Assembly (NCBI GenBank): GCA_022508265.1
Contig: JAFLVP010000011.1
Span: 7,671 to 49,100, forward strand
Reading direction: 5' to 3'
Source of the DNA: Clostridiales bacterium
GTDB taxonomy: Bacteria > Bacillota > Clostridia > Christensenellales > Borkfalkiaceae
Length of the DNA stretch: 41,430 bases
Part shown: positions 18,316 through 26,840 of the stretch, piece by piece
Numbering within the stretch: position 1 is the first letter of the stretch
Layout of the letters: every line of letters starts with the position of its first letter
Program-made: the position numbers and the translations under genes
The notes under the pieces: generated by a model
Database searches by the model: none
The model's input: the letters and a program-made list of their open reading frames with translations, nothing else
Told to the model about the DNA's origin: nothing

Positions 18316-19350
18316 TTAAAACGTTCCGCCGAAGCCTTTACCCAAAATTTCGTTTGCGTCGGTAATTATTACGAATGCCATAGGGTCTACTTGCTTTACC
18401 ATTGTCTTAAGCTTTAACGCCTCGCCCCTCTTGCACACGGTCACAAGCACCTTTTTGGGCTCCTTGGTGTATCCGCCCTCGGCGTCCATAATGGTACAGC
18501 TGTGTTTTATCTTGTGTATAATATAATTGTTAATTTCATCGGGGTGTTTGGTTATAATCGTAATATATTTTGTCTTGCCGATGCTCTCGATAACTCCGTC
18601 CAAAAGGAATGACTTTGCAAACAGACCCAAAAGGGAGAAGAGCATTATGTCCGGGGTATCTGGACTGAAAGTGAAACAAATGACCACGAAGTCGATTATA
18701 AGTAGCGACATTCCTACGTTCAGCTTGGTGTACTTTTTCATTATCATTGCAAGAATGTCCGTTCCGCCCGAGGTGGAGCCGCAGTTAAAGATGATAGCGC
18801 CGCCTATTCCGAAGAGGAGTATGGCGTAGCAGAGCTCCATAAAGGGCTCGTTGGTAAGGGTTTTGCTTTCAAGGTGAATGGGCTGATTGCCCGTACCGAC
18901 CAACTGTTCAAGCACCCATATTACAGCCGTGTATAAGAGCGAGCAGTAAATTGTTCTCACCGTGCATTGTTTGCCTAAAATGACAAGTCCCAAAATTACG
19001 AGGAAAACGTTAATTATGGCAATAAACACACCCTGCGTTAAATAGGGGTTGTTGAAAGCGTATTGCAATAAAAGGGCAATACCGGCAACTCCGCCGAGCG
19101 TAAAGCCGTTAGGCGTCTGGAAAAAGAATACGCTTGACGACATCATTAACACACCCGCCGTCATAAGCACCCACCTTAAAATCGTGTGACTTATCTTCTC
19201 TTTGGGTGCGCGCTCTTTTTTGCCGTTAGCCTTGGGCTCGGGCGAATTGTCTGCGACGCCGTCAGTGTCTGCCGCATTTTGGACGACGGGGCTGGTTTGC
19301 TCCTCGCCGTTTACTTCGGAAATTTCTTTTATCGTTTCGTTCTGTTCCAT
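18316..19350 (-). CDS. YitT family membrane protein with DUF2179 domain
   Basis: A 344-residue protein. A charged, Glu/Asn-rich N-terminal tail of about 50 residues precedes five or so membrane segments (DUF161/YitT_membrane; the SSSVFFFQTPNGFTLGGVAGIAL and STSGGTDILAMI motifs are typical). A cytoplasmic DUF2179 domain follows (ITIITKHPDEINNYI, then GYTKEPKKVLVTVCKRGE) from about residue 265. The function of the family is not established; the DUF2179 fold suggests ligand sensing. The N-terminal tail is longer than in most relatives. It is divergently transcribed from the amylase gene and has its own promoter and a leader with a 7-bp long-range stem. Confidence 0.9.
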   Translation of the reverse strand: MEQNETIKEISEVNGEEQTSPVVQNAADTDGVADNSPEPKANGKKERAPKEKISHTILRWVLMTAGVLMMSSSVFFFQTPNGFTLGGVAGIALLLQYAFNNPYLTQGVFIAIINVFLVILGLVILGKQCTVRTIYCSLLYTAVIWVLEQLVGTGNQPIHLESKTLTNEPFMELCYAILLFGIGGAIIFNCGSTSGGTDILAMIMKKYTKLNVGMSLLIIDFVVICFTFSPDTPDIMLFSLLGLFAKSFLLDGVIESIGKTKYITIITKHPDEINNYIIHKIKHSCTIMDAEGGYTKEPKKVLVTVCKRGEALKLKTMVKQVDPMAFVIITDANEILGKGFGGTF

Positions 19351-19469: not shown

Positions 19470-19498
19470 TTGACAGCAAAATTGCCATATGTTATAAT
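19470..19498 (+). promoter_or_regulatory. Promoter of the amylase/TIR/glgB operon
   Basis: Consensus TTGACA (19470-19475), a 17-bp spacer and a perfect TATAAT (19493-19498). This is one of the strongest-looking promoters in the window. It is divergent from the yitT promoter. Confidence 0.8.
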
Positions 19499-19526: not shown

Positions 19527-21569
19527 ATGATAAACAGAGACGCAATTTTCTCGGACGAAACTATTCAGTTTAAAACTCCGTACGAGCCCAGGACGGGCGA
19601 TACGGTCACACTCACTTTGCGCACACTCAAAAACGACGTATTGCGCGCCTATGCGGTAATAAACGGGATAAAACATTCTATGTCAAAGGTTTTTACCCGC
19701 TCTTATTTTGACTATTGGCAGGCGACTTTTATATGCCCTCAAAAAGAGGTGCGCTATTATTTTACCGCCTCCGACGAAGACGATATGCTCTGCTACAACC
19801 GTCTCGGCTGTGCCGAAAATCATCAGGAAGAGTACAGCTTTTCCTTCAGACCCGACAGCTCCGTTCCCGAGTGGGCGCGCGGAGCGGTCTATTATCAGAT
19901 ATTCCCCGACAGATTTTTTAACGGCAACGAAGAAAACGACGTTGTGGACAACGAATATTACTATACGGGCGGACACTCGCACAAGGTTGCGGATTGGAAC
20001 GCCTATCCCTCGAAACTGGACGTAAACAATTTTTACGGCGGAGATTTACAGGGAGTAAAGCAAAAACTGGACTATTTAGAGGAGCTCGGGGTAGACGTAA
20101 TATATTTAAACCCCGTCTTTGTGTCGCCGTCAAACCATAAATACGACGCTCAGGACTACGACCATATCGACCCCCACCTTGCCGTGATAGAGGACGACGG
20201 CGGCAGAGTTATGGAGGGTTGGGAAAAGCACAACGGTTTTGCGGAAAAGTATATAAAGCGCATAACCTCGCAAAAAAACCTCACAAAAAGCGATAAATTT
20301 TTTGCAAAGCTTGTAGAGGATATCCACTCGCGCGGTATGAAGGTAATATTGGACGGCGTTTTCAACCACTGCGGGTCCTTCCACAAGTGGATAGATAAAG
20401 AGGGCATTTATCTGAATAAAAAGGGCTACAAAAAGGGAGCCTATCAGTCGGTACAAAGCCCGTATAGGAATTATTTCAAATTCGACAGTCCCTCGCAAAC
20501 GCAAAGCAGCTACGAGGGGTGGTGGGGGCACGCAACCCTTCCCAAGCTCAACTACGAGCACAGCGAACAGCTTGAAGAGGAAGTTTTAAAAATAGGCGAA
20601 AAATGGGTTTCGCCCCCCTTCAACTGCGACGGCTGGCGATTGGACGTTGCTGCGGATTTGGGGCACAGTCCACGCTACAATCACAAATTCTGGGCAAAAT
20701 TCCGCGAGAGAGTGAGGGCGGCAAACCCCAACGCACTGGTATTTGCCGAGCATTACGGTTCGCCCGAAAGCTGGCTTAAAAACGGCGAGTGGGATACTGT
20801 TATGAACTACGACGCCTTTATGGAGCCCGTCACCTGGTTTTTGACGGGTATGGATAAGCACAGCGACAGCTTCGACGGATACAAGTACAGGGACGGCACA
20901 GCCTTCTTTGACAGCATGTCAAAAAATATGAGCAAATTCCCCCGTCCTGCGCTCGACTGCGCTTTAAATCAGCTGTCAAATCACGACCACTCCCGATTTT
21001 TAACCCGCACCAACCGCACGGTGGGAAGATTAGGCACCCTCGGACCGGAGGCGGCGAGGGCGAACGTGGACGTGCGGGTTATGCAGCTTGCCGTACTTAT
21101 TCAGATGACCTGGCCGGGCGCACCCGGAATATACTATGCGGACGAGGCGGGGCAGGTAGGCTGGACGGACCCCGACAGCCGCAGGACCTACCCTTGGGGA
21201 CACGAGGATAAACGGCTTATAGAATTTCACCGCGCCACGATTAAAATGAGAAAGAGGTTCAGCTGTCTTTCGTCGGGCAGTATAAACAGGCTTGATGCGG
21301 GTAACGGCTATATCGCCTACGGCAGGTTCGATAAAGACGGTGGGTGCGTAGTAATTATAAACGTCAACGACGTGCCTATATCTCTGTTGGTGCCCGTGTG
21401 GCAGATGGGCGTTCCGTGGGAAGACGCAGAGATGACCTGCATATTCCGCAGCAGCGGCTCGCTCTTTTCCGAGGAAGAAGAAAAATTTTCCGTCCGTCAC
21501 GGCAGACTGTCACTCAATATCTCCGAGTGTTCGGGAATGGTTCTGCACTATTCACTTAAAGATAAATAA
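19527..21569 (+). CDS. GH13 alpha-amylase family enzyme (neopullulanase/maltogenic-like)
   Basis: A 680-residue glycoside hydrolase with no signal peptide, so cytoplasmic. Residues 1 to about 115 form a CBM34-like beta domain, and the GH13 barrel begins at AVYYQIFPDRF. All the family regions are visible: DVIYLNPVF, ILDGVFNHCG, GWRLDVAAD (nucleophile Asp373), VFAEHYG (acid/base Glu408) and SNHDHSR (Asp487). This layout fits subfamily GH13_20 enzymes that hydrolyse maltodextrin, pullulan or cyclodextrin. The ribosome binding site AAAGGA lies upstream of the ATG. The TIR gene starts 18 bp after the stop and glgB follows, so it probably acts in intracellular alpha-glucan turnover. Confidence 0.93.
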   Translation: MINRDAIFSDETIQFKTPYEPRTGDTVTLTLRTLKNDVLRAYAVINGIKHSMSKVFTRSYFDYWQATFICPQKEVRYYFTASDEDDMLCYNRLGCAENHQEEYSFSFRPDSSVPEWARGAVYYQIFPDRFFNGNEENDVVDNEYYYTGGHSHKVADWNAYPSKLDVNNFYGGDLQGVKQKLDYLEELGVDVIYLNPVFVSPSNHKYDAQDYDHIDPHLAVIEDDGGRVMEGWEKHNGFAEKYIKRITSQKNLTKSDKFFAKLVEDIHSRGMKVILDGVFNHCGSFHKWIDKEGIYLNKKGYKKGAYQSVQSPYRNYFKFDSPSQTQSSYEGWWGHATLPKLNYEHSEQLEEEVLKIGEKWVSPPFNCDGWRLDVAADLGHSPRYNHKFWAKFRERVRAANPNALVFAEHYGSPESWLKNGEWDTVMNYDAFMEPVTWFLTGMDKHSDSFDGYKYRDGTAFFDSMSKNMSKFPRPALDCALNQLSNHDHSRFLTRTNRTVGRLGTLGPEAARANVDVRVMQLAVLIQMTWPGAPGIYYADEAGQVGWTDPDSRRTYPWGHEDKRLIEFHRATIKMRKRFSCLSSGSINRLDAGNGYIAYGRFDKDGGCVVIINVNDVPISLLVPVWQMGVPWEDAEMTCIFRSSGSLFSEEEEKFSVRHGRLSLNISECSGMVLHYSLKDK

Positions 21570-21587: not shown

Positions 21588-23321
21588 ATGGATTTAAAAC
21601 AATACCGCTGTAAAAACTGCGGCGGCGCGGACAATTTAAAAATAGACGGCGACACCTGCGAGTGCAAGTACTGCGGCAGTATAGTCCGCGTAGATACAGC
21701 ACAGGAATATATGACGGAGGTTCGCAAGGTTTTCGGCGAAGCGCTTGCCGAGCAAAAGGAGGAGCAGGTTGCCAACTGCCGCAGAAATCTGTGGAAAGCC
21801 GTGCACGCCGAGTACGTTTCGAGCGAGGAGGTATTAAATTGCGTTCGCGACCTCAAAAAACTGCTCCCCGACGACTTTCAGGCAAACTTTTTCGAGGTCG
21901 CAACAAGCGGCACGCCGCAGCAGCTTAACTCTTTTTTAAGGGGCGTCGATATTGCCCGAAACGGCGTATATATCGGGGATATGGCAGACTATATTTTGAG
22001 AAATCTCGAAAGCTCTTCCGTGCTTCCTTTAAAGGATTTGATAACCCGCGGTCTTAAAAACGAGAAGTACACCGAGTACATAACAAAGGTTGAGGACGAG
22101 GCGGAAAAATTAAAACAGGGCATTTATTCGCCGCAGGTCCCGCGCGACGTCTTTTTGGCGTATTCGAGTAAGGACTTTGCAAAGGTAAACGAAATCGCCG
22201 AGTTTTTGGAAGGGAATAAAATTTCCTGTTTCGTAGCTTTGCGCAACCTGCGCCACGGCAGGGGCTCGGTGGAAAATTACTTGAAAAACTTACAGACGGC
22301 TATGCACAACTGCAAGTGCGTGGTATTTTTATCGAGCGAAAACTCGCGCGATTTGGACTGCGACGCTCTCAAAGTGGAGCTTCCGTACATAAAGGACAAC
22401 GAGCCCGATATGGGCAGAATAGAATATATTTTATCCGACTACGGCAGTCAGACTACTTACGCCGCAAAGCTCATATTAGAGGACTTTTTCAACGGTCGGG
22501 AGTACTGCCGCACCAAAGAGGACTTACTTAAAAGAATTTTAAGATACACTACGGGAATAAAGGGCGAAAGCGCCGCATATGGCGCGGACGAAAAAGTAAA
22601 ATACTGCGTTTCCTGCGGCAAGAAGAACCCTTTGGACGCCAAGCGCTGTATGGAGTGCGGCTCCGCCGAATTCGCAAGCTCTTACGAGGCTTACCTCCGC
22701 GAAAAGCTCGAAAAGGAATATGCGGCAAAATATCAAAGTCAGCCACAGGTCGGTGCGTTCAACCATATGGGTGCATACAATCCTATGGGCGCGGCGGAGG
22801 CGGCTAAAAGAGCGCAGGAGGCGGCTTTAAGACAATCGGAAATTGCGGTAGCCAAAGCTCCCGTAAAACGCGCAACACCTTCAAACGCTCCCCAGCCCGA
22901 CTTTGAAATGTTCGGAACAGTTTTAAAGAGGTATAAGGGCAACAAATCGGAAGTTGTAATTCCCGAAGGCGTAACTGCAATCGCCGACGAGACATTCTGG
23001 TGGAACAACGGCATTAAAAGTGTAATTATTCCACAGGGCGTAACCTCTATCGGCAAAAACGCGTTCTATAATTGCGGTAATCTTGCAAGCGTAGAAATAC
23101 CGGACGGCGTGACTTCAATCGGCGAAAGAGCCTTTTCAAGCTGTTCAAAACTTGCAAGCATAACAATCCCCGAAAGCGTTACCGCTATGGGCACTCAAGT
23201 GTTCTCGAATTGCAGTAAGCTTAAAACAATAAATTGCGGAGCCCAAGGCAAGCCCAAAACCTGGGACGGTCAGTGGATAGGTTACTGTATGGCGGAAATC
23301 GTTTGGGGATATAAAAGTTAA
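21588..23321 (+). CDS. TIR-domain protein with two zinc ribbons and LRR_5 tail
   Basis: A 577-residue cytoplasmic protein with an unusual domain order. A zinc ribbon (Cys8, Cys11, Cys26, Cys29) comes first, then a helical region of about 150 residues, then a TIR domain from Asp187 (DVFLAYSSKDF, CFVALRNL, VVFLSSENS) with Glu264 in ALKVELPYI in the place of the usual catalytic Glu. A second zinc ribbon follows (Cys340, 343, 354, 357), then a low-complexity Ala/Met/Gln linker, and from about 443 four to five BspA-type leucine-rich repeats. Bacterial TIR domains often degrade or cyclise NAD and act in phage defence or signalling; neither activity is shown here. It sits between an amylase and glgB in one apparent operon. 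GGGGG precedes the ATG. Confidence 0.88.
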   Translation: MDLKQYRCKNCGGADNLKIDGDTCECKYCGSIVRVDTAQEYMTEVRKVFGEALAEQKEEQVANCRRNLWKAVHAEYVSSEEVLNCVRDLKKLLPDDFQANFFEVATSGTPQQLNSFLRGVDIARNGVYIGDMADYILRNLESSSVLPLKDLITRGLKNEKYTEYITKVEDEAEKLKQGIYSPQVPRDVFLAYSSKDFAKVNEIAEFLEGNKISCFVALRNLRHGRGSVENYLKNLQTAMHNCKCVVFLSSENSRDLDCDALKVELPYIKDNEPDMGRIEYILSDYGSQTTYAAKLILEDFFNGREYCRTKEDLLKRILRYTTGIKGESAAYGADEKVKYCVSCGKKNPLDAKRCMECGSAEFASSYEAYLREKLEKEYAAKYQSQPQVGAFNHMGAYNPMGAAEAAKRAQEAALRQSEIAVAKAPVKRATPSNAPQPDFEMFGTVLKRYKGNKSEVVIPEGVTAIADETFWWNNGIKSVIIPQGVTSIGKNAFYNCGNLASVEIPDGVTSIGERAFSSCSKLASITIPESVTAMGTQVFSNCSKLKTINCGAQGKPKTWDGQWIGYCMAEIVWGYKS

Positions 23322-23355
23322 GAATATTGTTCAAAACAATATTCAGAGGGTCAAT

Positions 23356-25362
23356 ATGGATAGATTTTTCGGCGAGCTTGACAGATATCTGTTCCACCAC
23401 GGAACGCATTACGAGCTGTACAACAAGATGGGTGCGCATATCCGCGAAGTAGACGGAGTGCGGGGCGTGCATTTCGTTGTGTGGGCTCCCAATGCGCGCG
23501 CTATCTGCGTAGTGTCGGACGGCAACGGCTGGACCCCATGGCGCGACAATATGGAAAAGGTTGACGATTGTATCTGGGAGCTCTTCGTTCCCGGAATGTG
23601 CGAGGGCGTAAAATACAAGTACCTCGTAGTCCGTGCCGACGGTTCGGAAGTTTACAAGAGCGACCCCTACGCATTCGGCTCCGAGCTCCGTCCCGCAACC
23701 GCCTCCGTAGTCGTAAATACCGACGGCTACGAATGGGGGGATAGCGAGTGGAAAAAAGCCCGGAAAGGCGAAAACTTCCTTGAAAAGCCCATGGCGGTGT
23801 ACGAGGTTCACCTCGGCAGTTGGAAAAAGGATTTGGCAAAGCACGACGAGGACCAGTTTTTAGACTATAGGCGCCTTGCGCACGAACTCTGCGAATACGT
23901 CGAATATATGGGCTACACGCACATAGAACTTATGGGCATATGCGAGTACCCTTTCGACCCCTCTTGGGGATATCAGGTGACGGGGTATTTCAGCCCTACG
24001 GCGCGGTACGGCTCGCCCCTCGACTTTATGTATTTCGTGGACTATATGCACAGGCACGGAATAGGCGTTATTCTCGACTGGGTGCCCGCGCACTTCCCCA
24101 AGGACGACTACGCGCTTGCAAACTTTGACGGCACGCCCCTGTACGAATACTCCGACCCCCTGCGCGCCGAATATCCCGAGTGGGGCACAAAAGCCTTCGA
24201 CTTGGGCAAGAAGGAGGTTTCGAATTTCTTAATTGCCTCGGCGTTTTTTTGGGTTGAAAAATACCACATAGACGCGCTCCGCGTGGACGCGGTTGCGGCG
24301 ATGTTTTATAACAGCTTCGGCCGTAAGGAGTGGCGCCCCAATATGTACGGAGGAAACGAAAACCTTGAAAGCTTTGAGTTTTTCCGTCATTTAAACAGCG
24401 TACTCCGTCAGCGCACGGACGCCTTTCTCATTGCCGAGGACTCCTCGATTATAGCAGGCGTAACCAAGCCCGCTAAAAAGGGCGGGTTCGGCTTCGGGCT
24501 CAAGTGGAATATGGGCTGGATGAACGACTCCATAAAATACTACAACACCGACCCCATATTCAGACCCTATCATCATCACCTGATGACGCACACCTTCGAG
24601 TACGCGTTCAACGAAAATTATATGCTCGTTCTCTCCCACGACGAGGTCGTGTACGGCAAGGGCAGTATGATTAACAAGTTCATGACGGGCAATTTAATGG
24701 ACAAGTTCGGGAGCCTCAAAACCTGCTACACTATGATGTTCGGTCACCCCGGAAAGAAACTGCTGTTTATGGGTCAGGACTTCGCGCAGGAGAGGGAGTG
24801 GAACTTTAAAACGGGGCTCGACTGGTACCTCTGCGACGACGAGGGTCACCGCGACGTTATGAATTGCTACCGCGCGCTTTTGCACCTTTACAGAAAATAC
24901 CCCGTGCTCTACAACGACTGCGGAGGTCCCAAAACCTGCGAGTGGATAAACAGCGGCGACTTCAACAGAAATATATTTACCTTCATAAGAAGAAACCCTT
25001 GGAACTATAACAACGCGCTCATCTTCGTGTGCAATTTTGCGCCCGTAGACAGATGGGATATGGGCGTAGGCGCACCCGTGGACGGCGTGTATAAGCGCGT
25101 ATTTTCTACTTATCCCGACGGCAGTCCTCTTGAAATCGAGGCAAAGAAAGAGCTCTGCGACGGCAGACCGTACAAGCTTATCTTCGATTTGCGCCCCTTT
25201 GAGTCGGCAATCTTCGAAATACCCTATCACGAGGCAACCGAGGAGGAGAAGAAAGCGGAAAAGGCGGTAAGAAACAAAATTAAGCGGGAGCACAAGGCGG
25301 TAAAGAACGACACCTCGCATATCCCGCAGATAGATACAGAAAAAAAACCGACAAAAAAATAA
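23356..25362 (+). CDS. glgB: 1,4-alpha-glucan branching enzyme
   Basis: A 668-residue glycogen branching enzyme that makes alpha-1,6 branches. The CBM48 domain (HFVVWAPNARAICVVSDGNGW) lies near residues 30-110. The GH13 catalytic region follows, with MGYTHIELMGI, the YFSPTARYGSP loop, DALRVDAVAAM (nucleophile Asp311), LIAEDSS (Glu361) and LSHDEV (Asp429). The C-terminal all-beta domain ends in a Lys-rich tail. Full length for a GlgB lacking the first N-domain. It lies 34 bp after the TIR gene with AGAGGG before the ATG, so probably shares the amylase promoter. No glgA, glgC or glgP is in the window. Confidence 0.96.
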   Translation: MDRFFGELDRYLFHHGTHYELYNKMGAHIREVDGVRGVHFVVWAPNARAICVVSDGNGWTPWRDNMEKVDDCIWELFVPGMCEGVKYKYLVVRADGSEVYKSDPYAFGSELRPATASVVVNTDGYEWGDSEWKKARKGENFLEKPMAVYEVHLGSWKKDLAKHDEDQFLDYRRLAHELCEYVEYMGYTHIELMGICEYPFDPSWGYQVTGYFSPTARYGSPLDFMYFVDYMHRHGIGVILDWVPAHFPKDDYALANFDGTPLYEYSDPLRAEYPEWGTKAFDLGKKEVSNFLIASAFFWVEKYHIDALRVDAVAAMFYNSFGRKEWRPNMYGGNENLESFEFFRHLNSVLRQRTDAFLIAEDSSIIAGVTKPAKKGGFGFGLKWNMGWMNDSIKYYNTDPIFRPYHHHLMTHTFEYAFNENYMLVLSHDEVVYGKGSMINKFMTGNLMDKFGSLKTCYTMMFGHPGKKLLFMGQDFAQEREWNFKTGLDWYLCDDEGHRDVMNCYRALLHLYRKYPVLYNDCGGPKTCEWINSGDFNRNIFTFIRRNPWNYNNALIFVCNFAPVDRWDMGVGAPVDGVYKRVFSTYPDGSPLEIEAKKELCDGRPYKLIFDLRPFESAIFEIPYHEATEEEKKAEKAVRNKIKREHKAVKNDTSHIPQIDTEKKPTKK

Positions 25363-25400: not shown

Positions 25401-26840
25401 TTAATCGTCCGTGCCGCCGTTACCCGAGCCGCTTGCGTTGTCTGCGTCGTCCGCTGTGTCGCCGCTATCGCCCGTATCGTGGTTATCCTCCTCGTCGGGT
25501 TCGGTAAAGGAAACTTCAACGTTATTGGGTTTCCAATCGTTACCCGTTACAACGTTTGCTTGCCACTCATCTTCCGTTCCTGCATAAACTATCTCGGTAA
25601 GGTGTGTACAGCCCGAAAATGCGCCTAAACCTATAGCGCGGATAGTTGAAGGAAGGGTTATACTTTCAAGTCCGGTACAGTCTCTGAAAGCCGAGCCTGC
25701 AATAGTGACCAACCCCTCGTTTAAAGTAATGTTATTAAGCGAAGAACAACCACGGAAAACATAATCTTTTATAATCGTAAGGGTTGCCGGGAGTGTTAAG
25801 TTGTCAAGCGAAGTGCAGCCGTCGAACGCGTTCGCACCTATTTCGGTTATTCCGTCATTAAAAATAACGGTAGTAAGCGATGTGCAGTTGCTGAAAGTAG
25901 ATTCGCGTATTTGCGTAACGCCTGCAAGGTAGGTAAACTTTGTAAGCGACTTGCAATCATGGAAGGCGTGAGAGCCTATCTCGGTTATATTGCTCGGGAT
26001 AGCAATTTCTTTAATTCCGCTTCCGTAGAACGCGCCATCGCCTATCGACGTCACAATATAGTCCGAACCGCTTTTGCGGGTGGGAATCGTGCTACCGTTA
26101 CAGCCTATAATTAGACATCTGTCCTCAATTTTTATAATGCAGTTGGAGATGCTCATATAGACGGTGTTTTGGGTGTCTATTATAATAGTTGTAAGCGATT
26201 GGCACGTTTGGAATGCCTGCGGGTCTATATCGGTAACCGTCTTGGGTATATAAATCTCTTTAAGATTACTGCAATTCGAGAATGCGTCTTTGCATATTTT
26301 CTTTACGCCGTCGAGTATAGTGAGCGTGTTTAAGTTGTTATTATGCCTGAACGCTTCTTCCGAAATTTCTACAACGTCAACCTCCTTTCCGTCGGGGGTT
26401 TTCACGGTGCCGGGAATTACAAGGTCCTCGATTGTCTCCTTTGCACCGCCAATTTTAGCGTTGCCGTCCTCGTCGAATTCAATATCCATATTTTCCTGCT
26501 TAGTGGGCAGTTTTCTTACGTAGCCGCATACTTTACAGACTGTATCTTCGCTGTTCCTGTATTCGTGAGAATCTCTGTTTTGTGTTAAAAAATCATCGGC
26601 GCAGTACTGCCAATGCTCGGTAGTGGTGTAAGTCCACACCCATTTATGCTGATGGGGAGGGTCAACGATAGGAGGGTCGTCAACAGGGTCATCGGGACCG
26701 GGTTCAACGGGGGTATTCGGACCGCCTGATTTGGGCGCGCACGACATCACGGAGCCTATCACAATGCCCGCAATAATCAGCGCAGATATTAAAGGTACGA
26801 GTACCCAAAATAAAATTTTCTTTTTCTTTGCCATTTCCAT
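25401..26840 (-). CDS. BspA-like LRR lipoprotein with acidic tail
   Basis: A 479-residue surface protein. A basic MEMAKKKK start, a hydrophobic segment and VMSC form a likely lipoprotein signal (Cys at about residue 34). A Pro/Asp-rich spacer (PVEPGPDDPVDDPP) follows, then a His/Cys module (HQHKWVWTY through CKVCGY) often seen in clostridial surface proteins, then about ten LRR_5 repeats from residue 150 to 430. The C-terminus is very acidic and Gly/Ser-rich with no LPxTG anchor. The role is probably binding at the cell surface; the ligand is unknown. The first ATG is preferred because AGG lies 7 bp upstream; a second ATG two codons later is possible. It has its own promoter. Confidence 0.87.
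   Translation of the reverse strand: MEMAKKKKILFWVLVPLISALIIAGIVIGSVMSCAPKSGGPNTPVEPGPDDPVDDPPIVDPPHQHKWVWTYTTTEHWQYCADDFLTQNRDSHEYRNSEDTVCKVCGYVRKLPTKQENMDIEFDEDGNAKIGGAKETIEDLVIPGTVKTPDGKEVDVVEISEEAFRHNNNLNTLTILDGVKKICKDAFSNCSNLKEIYIPKTVTDIDPQAFQTCQSLTTIIIDTQNTVYMSISNCIIKIEDRCLIIGCNGSTIPTRKSGSDYIVTSIGDGAFYGSGIKEIAIPSNITEIGSHAFHDCKSLTKFTYLAGVTQIRESTFSNCTSLTTVIFNDGITEIGANAFDGCTSLDNLTLPATLTIIKDYVFRGCSSLNNITLNEGLVTIAGSAFRDCTGLESITLPSTIRAIGLGAFSGCTHLTEIVYAGTEDEWQANVVTGNDWKPNNVEVSFTEPDEEDNHDTGDSGDTADDADNASGSGNGGTDD

Follow-up and report, generated by a model that had tools for sequence, protein, structure and literature searches.

A TIR protein with an exchangeable repeat tail in a clostridial glycogen operon and its possible cooperation with an ESCRT-like membrane system

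What does a TIR protein do inside a glycogen operon? The question is raised by the window studied here, a stretch of 41,430 nucleotides from a Clostridiales bacterium (assembly GCA_022508265.1, contig JAFLVP010000011.1, positions 7,671 to 49,100 of the forward strand), in which a gene for a TIR protein with a leucine-rich repeat (LRR) tail lies between a GH13 gene and glgB. Our best explanation, to which we give a probability of about 0.45, is that the protein may be a TIR enzyme whose sensor tail is exchangeable and which works with an ESCRT-like membrane system, and the target of this cooperation would probably be phage or envelope stress. The domain layout described by the original prediction is real and is as follows.

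21588..23321, + strand: open reading frame (ORF) of 577 aa for the zinc ribbon-helical-TIR-zinc ribbon-LRR protein
21609..21674, + strand: N-terminal zinc ribbon, C8-C11...C26-C29, invariant in 58/58 aligned rows
21690..22115, + strand: all-helical domain, residues 35-176, from DSSP of the predicted model; no recognised family
22140..22556, + strand: TIR domain, residues about 185-323, Pfam TIR_2 at 28.7 bits (cutoff 28)
22377..22379, + strand: codon of Glu264, the putative catalytic Glu, invariant in the alignments and in helix 259-271 of the model
22602..22664, + strand: second zinc ribbon, residues 339-359, Zn_Ribbon_1 at 23.4 bits, under the cutoff of 25
22902..23306, + strand: BspA-type LRR module, residues about 439-573, Pfam LRR_5 at 97.6 bits (cutoff 27.7)

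The N-terminal zinc ribbon had no match in Pfam, the helical domain gave only weak profile matches (best E 0.079) and no clear relative, and the Foldseek and VIA structure-search lists for the model, made up mostly of LRR and TIR chains, offered no lead on it. Inspection of the window protein by eye revealed no transmembrane stretch, none is present in the C-terminal part of its orthologue (L128), and the protein is probably cytoplasmic.

The original prediction called this architecture unusual, which is half right, as it is one combination within a family whose members differ in an exchangeable C-terminal module. A scan with one back-translated pattern against one genome per species (84,980 species, not a full census) gave 62 loci, nearly all in metagenome-assembled genomes of Clostridia and Bacilli, many of them from gut or rumen by title, plus Anaeroplasma bactoclasticum ATCC 27112, whose relative (L176) shows no N-terminal ribbon pattern. 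Two of these loci are weak outliers from other groups, and the remaining 60 yielded 72 ORFs, a tally that leaves out L188 and L189. When motifs were counted with regular expressions, which undercount DUF6273, the N-terminal ribbon pattern was found in 68 of the 72 ORFs, the second ribbon in 12, at least two LRR motifs in 39 and at least two Sel1 motifs in 9, and the exact domain order of the window protein was shared by 6, the orthologue among them. Pfam confirmed MORN (L142), DUF6273 (L152), Sel1 (L145) and TerD (L091) as alternative tails, and two to four copies are present at 8 of the 60 loci. The family is modular and consists of a constant zinc ribbon-helical-TIR core and an exchangeable LRR, Sel1, MORN, DUF6273 or TerD tail. 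Four consecutive TIR-repeat genes, of 516, 932, 1133 and 1389 aa, occupy positions 64-12115 of L180, and the fusion of the TIR core to a TerD domain (L091 8377-10248, 1e-11) shares its contig with an ESCRT-like operon. At L130 (1235-2527) and L153 (4472-6679), a gene resembling trmFO adjoins the TIR gene and one resembling topA lies in its vicinity, and each of these gene clusters is present at four loci. The BspA-type LRR family itself is common in the window genome, where contig C1 (about 123157-139596) carries a reading frame listed at 12,013 aa in which BspA-type LRR matches are numerous.

Whether the TIR domain is likely to be an enzyme depends largely on Glu264. The expectation that it keeps the TIR fold and the Glu of NAD-cleaving TIRs was borne out by the alignments and the model: the fold is present (best structural match IL-1RAcPb), the Glu lies in helix alphaC, as in TIR NADases, and it aligns to a Glu of structure 8btn. 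In alignment A2, composed of the window protein and 57 rows (second tandem copies, fragments and some divergent rows, 15 ORFs of the 72 in all, were excluded), Glu264 is invariant in 58/58 rows at a mean column identity of 21%. Of these rows, up to 36 gave a match to a PADLOC ThsB-type model (best 7e-8), and a ThsB model reached 18.3 bits (E 3e-4) with the window protein, both read from a library that gives no cut-off. Many TIRs are adaptors, and it is conceivable, though we consider it unlikely, that the TIR domain would only assemble a membrane-stress complex and yield no NAD product, with which the best model match, IL-1RAcPb, is consistent. The excerpted text of PMC7075850 likewise reports that one subgroup of TLR TIRs often has the Glu as well and that activity does not always accompany it. 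However, the invariance of the Glu in so divergent an alignment argues against such an idle scaffold.

The suggested partner comes from gene neighbourhoods. Nine relatives adjoin an AAA ATPase gene, 8 of these 9 also adjoin ESCRT-III-like genes, and tight operons of TIR and ESCRT-like genes are found in several separate branches. L090, located near an AAA gene, branches as sister to the window clade in the TIR tree (support 100/89). At L141 (2157-13494) and L150 (5544-17056), two TIR-repeat genes have an ESCRT-III-like/FtsK fusion on one side and an AAA gene on the other, with gaps of 10-20 bp. Across the 93 genomes of the genus, an ESCRT-III-like gene occurs in 20, including 7/7 TIR-positive ones (Fisher p 8e-6; 5/5 with close pairs merged, p 1.8e-4), where G009 was dropped from the TIR count because it matches the second zinc ribbon only (8 to 7). 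The AAA gene, defined by at least 323 bits to the L186 protein, is present in 5 of the 7 TIR-positive genomes and in 0 of the other 86, among which no match scores above 131.5 bits. A family sample, which overlaps the genus sample (G000, the window genome, its sister G019, G015 and other genus members are common to both), has the ESCRT-III-like gene in 9/12 TIR-positive genomes vs 11/189 (p 2.6e-8) and the AAA gene in 6 genomes, all 6 TIR-positive; G106, G122, G152 and G211, with E above 1e-20, were dropped from its TIR count (16 to 12), and the overlap stays 9. In an order-level sample, TIR was found in only 3/297.

The ESCRT-III-like and AAA queries were both taken from neighbours of TIR genes, a choice that may bias these counts towards co-occurrence. 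Evidence against the proposed cooperation came from a replicate in the family of G404, of the same order, where TIR was found in 2/41 genomes and the ESCRT-III-like gene in 0/41. The explanation that we rank next is a stand-alone anti-phage abortive-infection effector whose co-occurrence with ESCRT-like genes reflects shared mobility or lineage. The modular tails, multi-copy loci, patchy spread and ThsB-type matches of the family all fit such an effector, as do some TIR-positive genomes without an ESCRT-III-like gene, but the tight operons in separate branches speak against it, and we regard it as possible, albeit doubtful.

An operon of this kind is also present, intact, in the window genome, on contig C13 (L215 6412-11996), separate from the contig of the TIR gene. 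It encodes an SPFH/Band 7 protein that carries zinc ribbons, two proteins of 140 aa and 199 aa (the second helical), an ESCRT-III-like protein of 188 aa (57% to L161), a double-AAA protein and a trypsin-like protease. The idea that this genome lacks an ESCRT-like system was rejected, as the small ESCRT-III-like protein was found with an intact ORF, the listed stops falling only at match edges. The query of the genus AAA search has no match in this genome at E 1e-30.

The partner proteins are related to known membrane machines at some distance. For the ESCRT-III-like neighbour in relatives, the model predicts the topology of ESCRT-III, and the top 11 Foldseek matches are ESCRT-III/Vipp1 chains. 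Membership of the Snf7 sequence family was not found, with 13.4 bits for L161 vs a cutoff of 27.3 and no match for the L137, L150 or window-genome proteins. For the AAA neighbour, no MIT domain appeared among the matches listed (the best 25 of 40 or more), and the profile of its N-terminal part had calpain-7 as top match (E 0.047), with the VPS4A construct 2jq9 at E 0.87. Since its core is nearer to p97/Cdc48 (p97 198 bits vs Vps4 117 bits), the plain name Vps4 was rejected and dropped. The neighbourhood also holds TIR proteins and a trypsin-like protease, the latter mostly with a zinc ribbon. According to one section of PMC11237479, in which TIR domains do not figure, some bacteria have PspA and Snf7 operons with AAA proteins, one of them a two-AAA protein; therefore, parts of the partner system may already be known.

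The position of the gene in a glycogen operon is considered next, starting with its surroundings.

19470..19498, + strand: promoter-like site ahead of the three-gene unit, 12/12 consensus matches
19527..21569, + strand: GH13 alpha-amylase/neopullulanase-like gene, upstream neighbour
23322..23344, + strand: hairpin with arms of 10 bp in the TIR-glgB interval, z -3.9 and -3.4, kept in the sister species
23356..25362, + strand: glgB, branching enzyme, downstream neighbour, 765.6 bits to NF003811
25367..25393, + strand: terminator-like stem 3' of glgB

The noted spacing (18 bp from the GH13 gene to the TIR gene and 34 bp from there to glgB) holds, and the promoter-like site and the terminator-like stem fit the one strong promoter that was noted. 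The original prediction went further and raised the possibility that NAD signalling is linked to alpha-glucan storage. As a metabolic regulator of this kind, the TIR protein would sense glucan via the LRR and couple NAD or ADP-ribose signalling to the enzymes encoded on either side. In favour of such a metabolic regulator, the single-transcription-unit layout predates the split of the window genome and its sister, because the synonymous divergence of the TIR gene (0.346) resembles that of its neighbours (0.323 and 0.370). Nevertheless, the amylase-TIR-glgB order is not conserved across relatives. Among the 93 genus genomes, 92 have glgB and 7 a strong TIR core, and only in the window genome and the sister, where a 93% identical core lies at the same place, does a core match share a contig with the glgB orthologue. 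We sampled 20 of the 90 other glgB-bearing genomes, mostly those closest by glgB; one (L115) has no GH13 gene at its contig end, and in 19/19 loci with both genes the GH13 gene is immediately 5' of glgB with no TIR gene between (gaps -4 to 137 bp), on which ground glycogen regulation was rejected. The GH13-glgB pair is likewise absent from the flanks seen (up to 8 kb) of the other family loci searched, among them the five same-order relatives besides the orthologue; only L139, on the same contig as L103, has a partial GH13 gene, which is for a different enzyme and about 6 kb away. Same-order homologues away from glycogen genes are the outcome that the original prediction had named as its own refutation. 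A regulator of glucan metabolism is thus very improbable. The place of the TIR gene between GH13 and glgB looks like a single insertion, and purifying selection has maintained the gene: between the two species, dN/dS is 0.055 in the TIR domain and 0.205 in the LRR. A phage- or plasmid-borne gene was also considered and rejected, as searches of viral contigs, phages and plasmids revealed no relatives at the sensitivity used. Beyond the unit, a BspA-LRR protein with a hydrophobic N-terminus is encoded convergently to glgB (25401-26840, - strand), at the same place in the sister (64%) and conserved much less than its neighbours, and one YitT gene lies at 18316-19350 (- strand), likewise in the sister, where 10 of the 20 other relatives examined have two.

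How could a TIR enzyme of this kind work with an ESCRT-like system? We propose that the constant core of zinc ribbon, helical domain and TIR is the output half of a cytoplasmic immune-type TIR protein, and that the C-terminal repeats, in the window protein a short BspA-type LRR, are the exchangeable sensing or docking half, in line with the original prediction of a possible sensor, which is supported as a possibility. The cue would most likely be a phage product or an envelope lesion, on which the proteins would cluster and the TIR domains pair; Glu264 would then catalyse NAD cleavage, with ADP-ribose or a cyclic ADP-ribose as product, and this reaction would halt growth or serve as a signal. 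In its own genus and family, the TIR protein would act jointly with the ESCRT-III-like/AAA membrane-remodelling operon, including the SPFH protein, and the insertion between the GH13 gene and glgB places the TIR gene behind a strong promoter-like site. A bolder version, which we offer tentatively and with less confidence, is that gut Clostridia and Bacilli have an undescribed system made of a TIR NADase repertoire with LRR, Sel1, MORN or TerD sensors and an ESCRT-III-like/AAA machine, in which membrane damage or phage entry would be sensed at the ESCRT-like polymer and met by repair first and NAD depletion second. One member, the window protein, would have moved into a housekeeping operon, with its partner operon elsewhere in the genome.

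TIR domains also occur in other prokaryotic conflict systems, as the available part of PMC7159879 relates, and no description of the TIR-repeat family or the TIR-ESCRT operon was recognised among the papers listed from the open-licence PMC text searched, which is a weak negative. With the TIR NADases SARM1, RUN1, SPARTA TIR-APAZ and Thoeris ThsB, the window protein shares the TIR fold and the Glu at the catalytic position, and many relatives match ThsB models; unlike them, the family has an N-terminal zinc ribbon, a helical domain and LRR, Sel1, MORN, DUF6273 or TerD tails, and unlike SPARTA and plant TIRs, the window protein has no Ago or NB-ARC part in the Pfam scan. The partner genes resemble ESCRT-III/Vps4 and phage-shock PspA systems in the modelled topology, the AAA partner and the SPFH protein of the window genome, but differ from them in the sub-cutoff Snf7 similarity, the AAA core nearer to p97/Cdc48 than to Vps4, and the TIR proteins and trypsin-like protease nearby. 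The tail comes from the repeat family of BspA-type LRR surface proteins, but is fused to a TIR core, and the C-terminal part of the orthologue has no transmembrane stretch.

TIR-plus-LRR receptors are a classic immune layout in animals and plants. Like TLR and plant TIR-NB-LRR receptors, the family combines a TIR output with LRRs and has several copies in some genomes, whereas the window protein has a BspA-type LRR, no NB-ARC, no transmembrane stretch visible by eye and the TIR before the LRR. In this bacterial family, a conserved TIR core is combined with repeat tails that can be swapped. A connection in bacteria between membrane remodelling and NAD signalling by TIR domains would, to our knowledge, be new, and it can be tested directly.
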